Assembly: GCF_000011745.1 (NCBI RefSeq)
Contig: NC_007292.1
Coordinates: 310,001-374,000, forward strand
From: Candidatus Blochmanniella pennsylvanica str. BPEN
GTDB taxonomy: Bacteria > Pseudomonadota > Gammaproteobacteria > Enterobacterales > Enterobacteriaceae
Reading direction: 5' to 3'
DNA: 64,000 nt
Part shown: piece after piece, positions 54,470-56,636 of the stretch
How positions within the stretch are numbered: the stretch's first letter is position 1
Layout of the letters: the number at the start of each line of letters is the position of its first letter
Translations under genes and position numbers: made by a program
Notes under the pieces: model-generated
The model's database searches: none
Seen by the model: the letters and a program-made list of their open reading frames with translations, nothing else
What the model was told of the DNA's origin: nothing

Positions 54470-54539
54470 AATATACCCCACTAAACCAATAAGTTTTAGT
54501 TCTTATATTTATAATAATTACTATATGAGTTATATTCTG

Positions 54540-56636
54540 ATGAGTTATCAAGTACTCGCCCGTAAGTGGCGACCAAAAAAATTTTCTGATATTGTAGGGC
54601 AAGAACACATCATTCAAGCAATAACACATACTTTTTCATTAAATAAAATTCACCACGCTTATATATTATCTGGTACAAGAGGAGTAGGAAAAACTACTAT
54701 TGCTCGATTATTCGCAAAAGGATTAAACTGTGAACAAGGAACAACATATACCATGTGTGGTCAATGTAATAATTGCAAAGATATTGAATTAGGTTGTTTT
54801 ATTGATCTGATTGAAATAGACGCAGCATCACGCACTAAAGTAGAAGATACTAGGGAATTTCTAGATAATGTACAATACATGCCATCTCGAGGTCGCTTTA
54901 AAGTATATCTTATAGATGAAGTACATATGTTATCCCGTCACAGTTTCAATGCTTTATTAAAGACGTTAGAAGAACCACCTACACATGTTAAATTTATTTT
55001 GGTTACTACTGAATACCAAAAATTACCGGAGACTATCTTATCCCGGTGTTTACAGTTTTACTTGAAACCTCTAAACATTTCTCAAATTATAAATCAACTA
55101 ACATATATCTTTCATAAAGAAAACATAAACATAGAAACTTCTGCTTTAGAATCGTTAGCATATGCATCAAAAGGAAGTATGCGTGATGCGCTTAGTTTGG
55201 CAGAACAAGCTATTGTCTTAGGAAATAATGAGATAACTAATAATGTTATTAATAATATGTTTGGTATATCGAATATCGAACATCCATTATGTTTAATCGA
55301 GAGCTTAATTGATGAAGATATACATAATATTATGCACCAAATTGAAAATTTGACTGTTTTAGGAGTTCATTGGGATTATGTTTTCAATGAAATTCTTACT
55401 ATCTTGCAGAAAATAGCTATAGGTCAATTTCTGTCAAATTCTGTACAAAAAGAGGATAACAATGTAACACAACATATCAATCAACGTATGCGTAGATTAA
55501 GTAATCGTATTACTCCGGAAAATGTACAATTATATTATCAGATATTTCTATTAGGTCGTCGCGAATTGCCTTACGCTCCTAGTCATCGCATGGGAATAGA
55601 AATGACCATGTTACGAGCATTAGCTTTTCGTCCTGATGTAGACATAGCAAACAAAAAAAATGGTAATGGTGATGATAATGATCATATACTTAAAAAATCT
55701 GTATGCTCAAATAATAATGTCGAGATAAATACTAATGATACACAACATATTGCTACTGATCTTTTCCAAAAAAAAAATCATAATCAAGGTAGTAAGAATG
55801 TATTAAATACAGAAAAATTAAAAAAAACAAATAATATATTACTTTTAAATTTTAAAAAATCCGAATTAAATTCGGATAATACCAAACCTAAAATTTCAAA
55901 ATCTGTCTCTAGTAGAGATACTAGGGATATTACTTCTACAATATTAGAAGCTCGATCAAAGCTATTACAATATAAAGAACGTGACAAGTTAAATGTCATA
56001 GAAAAAAAATCAAATTTAACTTTAGAATCTCAAAAAAAAATAAAAGATATATTAGAACGATTTGCCAGTATTAATACAATAATTTTAAAAAATAGTTCTG
56101 ATCGTTTCGAAAAAATTAATAAAGATTTATCAGGATATTTAGAATTTAGTAATAACAGTAATAATAAAGAAAATTTACATAGAAACCATCAAAATATGCC
56201 CGATTTCATAAAAGAAATACTTCAAAAAGCAATAAACAATAATTTATGGATATCACAAATATATCGTTTGTCGTTACCAAAATTAGCAAAAAAATTAGTT
56301 ATGAATTCGTGGAAAGAAAAAATTTCTTCAGATGAGATATGCTTACATGTTCGTTCTGATTACCAACATTTAAATTCTACAGAACTCCGTAATATCATAC
56401 AAAAATCACTTAGCAATAATATAGGTATAGCAATAAAATTACATATAAAAAAAGATGACAATTATGCAATAAAAACACCAATGGAACATTTATATACTTT
56501 ATATAAAGAAAAAATATCATTAATAAAGAAAGAATTTTCAAGTGATCCGTACGTTAAAATGATTAAATCTTTTTTTGATGCTGAAATAGATGAAAATGAT
56601 ATTCAAGTACTTTATGATCAGAATAAAAACTTATAA
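54540..56636 (+). CDS. dnaX: DNA polymerase III subunits tau and (by slippage) gamma
   Basis: DnaX is the clamp-loader ATPase and the tau organiser of the replisome. Starting at the ATG at 54540 (MSYQVLARKWRP, as in E. coli) it has 698 residues (E. coli tau 643); an ATG at 54525 is less likely. Walker A is GTRGVGKTT near residue 45, a zinc module has CGQCNNC, Walker B is YLIDEVHMLS and the sensor/arginine-finger region ILSRCLQF follows. Residues about 370-540 are a Lys/Asn-rich low-complexity linker. The C-terminal tau domain keeps LSLPKLAKKLVMNSWKE and FFDAEIDENDIQ. A ten-A tract at 55768-55777 may produce a gamma-like product. Confidence 0.97.
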   Translation: MSYQVLARKWRPKKFSDIVGQEHIIQAITHTFSLNKIHHAYILSGTRGVGKTTIARLFAKGLNCEQGTTYTMCGQCNNCKDIELGCFIDLIEIDAASRTKVEDTREFLDNVQYMPSRGRFKVYLIDEVHMLSRHSFNALLKTLEEPPTHVKFILVTTEYQKLPETILSRCLQFYLKPLNISQIINQLTYIFHKENINIETSALESLAYASKGSMRDALSLAEQAIVLGNNEITNNVINNMFGISNIEHPLCLIESLIDEDIHNIMHQIENLTVLGVHWDYVFNEILTILQKIAIGQFLSNSVQKEDNNVTQHINQRMRRLSNRITPENVQLYYQIFLLGRRELPYAPSHRMGIEMTMLRALAFRPDVDIANKKNGNGDDNDHILKKSVCSNNNVEINTNDTQHIATDLFQKKNHNQGSKNVLNTEKLKKTNNILLLNFKKSELNSDNTKPKISKSVSSRDTRDITSTILEARSKLLQYKERDKLNVIEKKSNLTLESQKKIKDILERFASINTIILKNSSDRFEKINKDLSGYLEFSNNSNNKENLHRNHQNMPDFIKEILQKAINNNLWISQIYRLSLPKLAKKLVMNSWKEKISSDEICLHVRSDYQHLNSTELRNIIQKSLSNNIGIAIKLHIKKDDNYAIKTPMEHLYTLYKEKISLIKKEFSSDPYVKMIKSFFDAEIDENDIQVLYDQNKNL
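55768..55777 (+). other. dnaX ten-A slippery tract, putative gamma site
   Basis: In the tau frame this reads CAA-AAA-AAA-AAT (Q410 K K N). A -1 ribosomal shift, or one extra A in the transcript, reads AAA-TCA-TAA and stops at 55781-55783. The product would have about 414 residues, close to E. coli gamma (431), and would end after the clamp-loader domains. A +1 shift stops at 55804-55806. Poly(A) slippage is used to make gamma in E. coli and Thermus. Confidence 0.55.

Follow-up and report, generated by a model that had tools for sequence, protein, structure and literature searches.

A ten-adenine tract in the dnaX linker of a Blochmannia genome is probably a by-product of AT-rich sequence and not a maintained tau/gamma switch

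The analysis of dnaX in the window, by which is meant the whole stretch of 64,000 nucleotides under study (C1:310001-374000 of genome G000; 791,654 bases, 100% completeness), indicates that the ten-adenine tract (A10) of this gene is probably a by-product of an AT-rich linker on which unprogrammed slippage probably occurs, and not a maintained, programmed switch between tau and gamma. The gene lies on the forward strand at 54540..56636 and encodes the full tau form, with 698 residues counted from the ATG at 54540 (MSYQVLARKW) and with both domain and family matches; a longer open reading frame that starts at 54525 adds five residues, for a total of 703. The protein matches domain III as well as the alpha-binding domain V (PF12170, over residues 555-693 of the 703-residue frame), and the NCBIfam name is DnaX.

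The A10 tract occupies 55768..55777 on the forward strand, flanked by TTTTCC on the 5' side and TCATAATC on the 3' side, and spans codons CAA410, AAA411, AAA412 and AAT413 as numbered from the ATG at 54540. The -1 frame continues as AAA-TCA-TAA, with its TAA at 55781..55783 (forward strand), so that the original prediction of ten A's at Q410-N413 with a -1 stop just behind them was confirmed in the sequence. Its further expectation of a product of about 414 residues, ending past the clamp-loader domains, agrees with the computed products, as one inserted A yields 414 residues and one deleted A yields 421. A run of at least nine A's after the clamp-loader domains is thus present, and both other frames are soon stopped, the -1 frame at two codons and the +1 frame at nine, as in a Thermus-type signal. 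The accessory elements of an E. coli-type signal are lacking at the A10: folding of the 3' sequence gave no stable stem (-1.5 kcal/mol, z -0.60), and no Shine-Dalgarno-like stretch was read by eye upstream, where the sequence is ATTGCTACTGATCTTTTCC. The E. coli dnaX site folds at -19.8 kcal/mol with a z of its own of -0.16, and it is therefore the energy, not the z, that separates it from the A10.

The frequency with which such a run and stop arise in this linker was determined by shuffling its 147 codons 2000 times, which produced a run of at least ten A's in 21% of the shuffles; in 8%, such a run also had a -1 stop no more than two codons away. By redrawing codons 5000 times from the codon usage of the window with the protein held fixed, an A10 was obtained at Gln-Lys-Lys-Asn (QKKN) in 72% of redraws, and a run of at least ten A's somewhere in the linker likewise in 72%. 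Across the 44 window open reading frames of at least 150 codons, a -1 stop lies within two codons at 28% of codon boundaries and stops in both other frames lie within ten codons at 46%; exact A10 runs number 32 in the genome over both strands, with 3 inside these 44 frames. The A10 with its near -1 stop is at the level of chance and not more than expected. Runs of at least eight A's in the linker are above chance, with five observed against a shuffle mean of 0.92. Summed over 13 genomes, runs of at least ten A's with a -1 stop within two codons number 5 against a mean of 0.8 in shuffles, and the A AAA AAR heptamers that have a stop this near number 17 against 4.2, although this excess is weakened because the genomes are related and not independent.

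The conservation of the A10 within the genus was investigated across 14 Blochmannia genomes, and the tract, together with its -1 stop, is kept at the aligned place in the three closest genomes (G000, G008 and G001) and is absent from the other 11. G010, whose DnaX is 91% identical, carries a Lys-to-Arg change inside the A10 place, and G007 has no A-run there. As a control, all tracts of at least nine A's in the window open reading frames were followed into four genomes; the other coding tracts are kept in 13/14 cases in G008, 13/14 in G001, 12/14 in G010 and 5/14 in G007, and the A10 itself is kept in the first two and lost in the last two. The A10 is kept no better than the other long coding tracts of the window, and the conservation under selection that characterizes a Thermus-type tract is not seen for it, with 3 of 14 genomes. 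Runs of at least nine A's somewhere in the dnaX linker occur in seven of the 14 genomes (G000, G008, G001, G010, G003, G002 and G012), the other seven being without one. Among these, a separate A10 at codon 400 of G003, an A12 at codon 425 of G010 (the place of the G000 A8 of codon 427) and an A9 at codon 376 of G012 all have their -1 stop at a distance of one codon. The anticipated conservation in relatives consequently failed at the place of the A10 itself, absent from 11 of 14 genomes, and held to the extent that three genomes carry runs of A9 to A12 elsewhere with a -1 stop directly following. The own runs of G003 and G012 are the best hint that such tracts might matter.

These observations bear directly on the possibility that the A10 is a programmed gamma signal, working by Thermus-style transcriptional slippage and new in the line of G000, G008 and G001. 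The run of at least nine A's with its stops at two (-1) and nine (+1) codons, the right length of the product, the retention in three genomes, and the A10 of G003 and A12 of G010, which look as if runs recur, all speak for this explanation; the absence from the place in 11 of 14 genomes, the loss in G010 despite its similar DnaX, and the chance level in shuffles, redraws and stop counts speak against it, and we consider it quite unlikely. The claim of the original prediction that the A10 is a kept tau/gamma signal is not supported, given this chance level and the loss in G010 and G007.

Two genomes of the genus present observations of their own. G010 (locus L007), with its A12 at codon 425, is a good genome in which to seek dnaX slippage. 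In G007 (L008), the frame breaks at an A9 at dnaX codon 657, near the end of tau, and the match to the final 48 residues lies in a different frame, which contains stops; this break lies in the tau-only part, and the tract differs from that of G002 and G012.

Besides the A10, four further tracts of at least eight A's were found in dnaX, all on the forward strand and all past domain III, and a one-base slip in either direction at any of the five tracts gives products of 375-511 residues. The first such tract after domain III is an A8 at 55653..55660 (codon 372; insertion 375 residues, deletion 395), followed past the A10 by an A8 at 55820..55827 (codon 427; -1 TAA two codons on; insertion 431 residues, deletion 435), an A8 at 56002..56009 (codon 488), near the E. 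coli-aligned slippery site with its -1 stop 21 codons on, and an A9 at 56032..56040 (codon 498; insertion 511 residues, deletion 500). The A8 at codon 427 is the best-kept tract of this line, present in six of 14 genomes (G000, G008, G001, G010 as A12, G007 and G006). This retention raises the possibility that it is the working signal, either as a ribosomal A AAA AAA site or as a slippage run, with a 431-residue product; all six genomes have a -1 stop within two codons, and together they form one branch of the tree. Against this stand the lack of any tract of at least eight A's at that place in G011, G009 and G013, the lack of a close stem, and the reported weakness of A AAA AAA as a shift site relative to A AAA AAG (PMC5009743). 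Moreover, the other window coding tracts of at least eight A's are also retained at full length in 26/37 cases in G010 and 18/37 in G007, a control that covers these two genomes and leaves G006 outside, and a role of this A8 as the signal is accordingly judged unlikely.

The one stable hairpin near the A8 of codon 427 begins about 30 bases on, at 55859-55877, and is a perfect 8 bp helix at the end of an A6 run, with a z of -2.77 in its 60-base stretch. Nine genomes were looked at for it, of which G011, G009 and G013, being without it, were dropped and six counted; 93.8% of cells pair with one two-sided change, and the covariation is not above that of shuffles (185 of 500). As an E. coli-like stimulator the hairpin was ruled out, since it begins at the last A of its A-run and is too close.

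The survival of an E. coli-type ribosomal signal at the aligned place was examined by alignment. In E. coli, A AAA AAG covers codons 428-430 and is preceded by the motif TTSQVLAARQQL, whose counterpart in the alignment is ITSTILEARSKLLQY of G000, and the block aligned with the E. coli frameshift neighbourhood lies at 55935..56054 on the forward strand (codons 466-505), with the aligned place about 75 codons past the A10. The A10 was considered as the E. coli site itself and rejected, as E. coli is gapped there and KAKKSEP aligns after ITSTILEARSKLLQY. The block retains an in-frame A AAA AAA at codon 488 of G000, and A AAA AAG is found in G008 at codon 487 and in G012 at codon 524, the latter with a -1 stop two codons on, which favours a surviving signal. 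Opposite the E. coli Lys-Lys, however, G000 has AAT GTC (nearby gaps could shift this by a few residues), the -1 stop after the codon-488 heptamer is 21 codons away, and no stable stem follows that heptamer (-1.8 kcal/mol, z 0.58). In 12 of the 13 aligned Blochmannia (G004 was left out of the block alignment), the block holds no A AAA AAA/G that has a -1 stop at most two codons away. The family loci served as a positive control: 21 of 28, including G068 at codon 477, have the heptamer beyond codon 425 and their -1 stop at a distance of one codon. G000 has no heptamer at the domain IV site that is followed directly by a -1 stop. Survival of this signal in G000 is thus very improbable.

The preferred explanation therefore remains an A10 that is a by-product with unprogrammed slippage. 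The tract would have arisen from the linker that joins domain III to the tau-specific domains and is AT-rich and rich in Lys and Asn, and RNA polymerase, perhaps also the ribosome, would slip on it at some rate, mostly by one added A. The slipped transcripts would encode a DnaX of about 414 residues that has the clamp-loader domains and lacks the tau domains, and the other A8-A9 tracts of the linker would slip likewise. Published work makes RNA polymerase slippage plausible, as the original prediction had suggested (PMC5009743, PMC5574713): Blochmannia pennsylvanicus is named among the slippage cases and bacterial slippage on nine A's is known (PMC5009743), insertions are reported as the predominant change in the A/T runs of Buchnera and E. 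coli (PMC5574713), and frameshifted symbiont genes are described with 30% full-length transcripts (PMC3017870, citing Tamas et al.). The insertion rate given for Buchnera is 1.3 x 10^-5 per transcribed base and grows with run length (PMC5574713), and this slippage-rate study is reported to have seen no restored frame (PMC5574713). With such low insertion rates and no restored frame, the leak may be small.

By extending the comparison to related genera, a different tract was found that is conserved. In a first sample of 28 family dnaX loci, with the LRALAF motif taken as the end of domain III, ten loci carry an A9 at codons 376-384, 14 to 21 codons past LRALAF, in the context GAA AAA AAA ACN GCT GAA, which places a -1 TGA two codons on. 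A scan of 392 family genomes for the 17-mer of this context returned 13 matches, of which 10 fall in dnaX (10 genera) and 3 elsewhere, and the 295 genomes scanned at the level of the order, 23 of which belong to the family, gave one match, in a frame unlike that of dnaX. Thirty further loci were hand-picked for small genomes, odd open frames or membership of genus g141, and the 27 with the start motif were examined (L088, L102 and L103 were left out), which added three more A9 tracts: G162, with ACA CTT AAA and a -1 TAA; G147, with ACA GCT AAA and a -1 TAA; and G066, with ACA CCA AAA and a -1 stop at six codons. G247 has an A8 variant with a stop at four codons, and G373 and G314, congeners of G247 and G153, have no tract. 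The A9 after domain III (codons 376-384) is thereby found in 13 genomes of 13 genera (loci L037, L040-L042, L044, L045, L047, L048, L050, L051, L081, L083 and L100), and in 12 of the 13 the -1 stop lies exactly two codons on, a spacing that in two A9 genomes is reached through changed amino acids.

Codon choice at this tract is uniform. Glu-Lys-Lys-Thr (or its form with Arg) within codons 351-410 occurs in 13 of 55 loci, and all 13 are spelt GAA AAA AAA ACN; over residues 1-365 of the same 13 genomes, the invariant columns number 9 for Lys, 12 for Glu and 14 for Ala, of which only 1 Lys, 2 Glu and 0 Ala columns use one codon throughout. The third-position GC is 0.56-0.73 in eight of the 13 A9 dnaX genes. 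A9 runs are rare in G067, G039 and G117 (10, 17 and 18 in 3.7, 4.5 and 4.3 Mb) and number 41-101 in G120, G125, G017 and G153. Six of the 13 genomes (G067, G039, G120, G017, G117 and G125) possess both signals, with A AAA AAG at codon 520-723 and a -1 stop one codon on; G142 and G162 keep A AAA AAG, but with the -1 stop 19 and 7 codons away, and the E. coli-type signal is absent from G153, G092 and G147 and ambiguous in G066, while the contig of G064 ends earlier.

Folding after the relatives' A9 gave no stem in 12 of the 13 loci (z -1.89 to 1.20), the thirteenth being left out as it runs into N; this is a weak test, as the E. coli site gives a z of 0.13. No conserved +1 stop follows the A9 in the 13 genomes, where its distance is 6 to 62 codons. 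That the -1 stop alone is retained agrees with ribosomal slippage and likewise with slippage of RNA polymerase, the latter because insertions are reported to predominate in such runs in E. coli and Buchnera (PMC5574713). Taken at the level of sequence, the relatives' A9 looks like a selected second gamma signal, probably a programmed one. Against selection, the tree needs six changes for the A9 label, and many rows on the same side have no A9. No earlier report of this A9 was found in the open-licence literature, which is weak evidence of novelty.

Other runs near this region were noted in the family. Two more loci have at least nine A's between codons 361 and 410: G338 (L093), with an A9 at codon 398, a -1 stop two codons on and flanks unlike those of the A9 of other genera, also has an E. 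coli-type A AAA AAG at codon 437; G050 (L090) has a dnaX of 384 codons with an A10 at codon 378 near its end, where the frame is broken at an A-run near the position that the A9 occupies in other genera, the +1 frame being open for 258 codons past the A10 and tau domain V lying in a 261-codon open frame. In G021 (L085), dnaX has 434 codons and ends just past an A11 at codon 427, the -1 frame is open for about 214 codons, and tau domain V lies in a separate 220-codon open frame; this looks like a reversed layout in which tau would require the frameshift.

The relationship of these tracts to those of Blochmannia was approached through a tree built by a short search from residues 1-358 of 70 DnaX rows. 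None of the 14 Blochmannia falls within the group of 29 on the E. coli side (SH-aLRT 99); all are placed on the side that holds the 13 A9 genomes, a placement affected by long branches and uneven composition. Three MAFFT modes set the relatives' A9 against residue 381-382 of G000, which lies between the codon-372 and codon-410 tracts. Homology of any Blochmannia tract with the relatives' A9 was not established, as the linker aligns unreliably; descent of the A8 at 55653 from that A9 is only a guess, and the ancestor of Blochmannia may have had an A9.

The retention of tau was considered alongside. Domain V is found in 113 of 149 family genomes and absent from 36; the 20 of these that were listed all have 1.0 Mb or less. 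Loss of tau was rejected as an answer for Blochmannia, as domain V is present in 13 of the 14 genomes and the line therefore retains tau; the exception, G004 (L017), has a dnaX of 404 codons, no run of at least nine A's in the linker and no domain V match in the genome. DnaX shrinkage has been published for the symbiont Serratia symbiotica (PMC5013485). A gamma-length DnaX seems to be enough for many symbionts, in which case leakage at A-tracts would be harmless. A broader scenario can be proposed tentatively, as possible but short of probable: related genera would have a selected second dnaX gamma signal in the A9, so that tau and two gammas could occur together, and Blochmannia would have lost both fixed signals and would now obtain gamma through slippage across the linker A-tracts, of which the A10 is the longest here.

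Overall, a long A-run with a near stop in an AT-rich symbiont is by itself no proof of a recoding signal, and the counts given here document how often such a run and stop arise for nothing. The conserved A9 of related genera offers a testable case of dnaX recoding with a shorter product, a kind of case that is hard to judge by sequence comparison, as noted by Baranov et al. (PMC1088944). The genera with both signals, in which two gamma lengths might occur in one cell, offer a test of the purpose of gamma.

The comparison with known systems places these tracts in context. Thermus thermophilus dnaX, in which slippage on an A9 and a 1:1 gamma:tau output have been reported (PMC1088944, PMC5009743), is alike in its one-frame tau, in the A-run past the clamp-loader domains and in the nearby stops of both other frames; unlike the Thermus tract, the A10 is unconserved and is one of five tracts of at least eight A's, and its slippage is a predicted one. 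With E. coli dnaX, the present gene shares an A-rich heptamer that is read in the tau frame and has a -1 stop behind it, but the A10 lies about 75 codons upstream of the aligned site without a stable stem or a Shine-Dalgarno-like stretch, and the aligned heptamer is gone in G000. The slippage-prone poly(A) tracts of Blochmannia and Buchnera genes are of the same kind, the A10 being a coding run of at least nine A's in a genome of the former genus. In B. vafer and B. floridanus, dnaX is described with a fixed frameshift in another, downstream poly(A), for which rescue by slippage was proposed (PMC3017870); the frame is intact in G000, and slippage there would therefore shorten DnaX and not restore the frame. 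Finally, a GeneTack cluster contains a two-ORF dnaX with 10 A's in which tau requires slippage (PMC3711429); this two-ORF class resembles the present case in having a poly(A) of 7-10 A's where gamma and tau part, and differs in that its default product is short, whereas the default product of G000 is tau.
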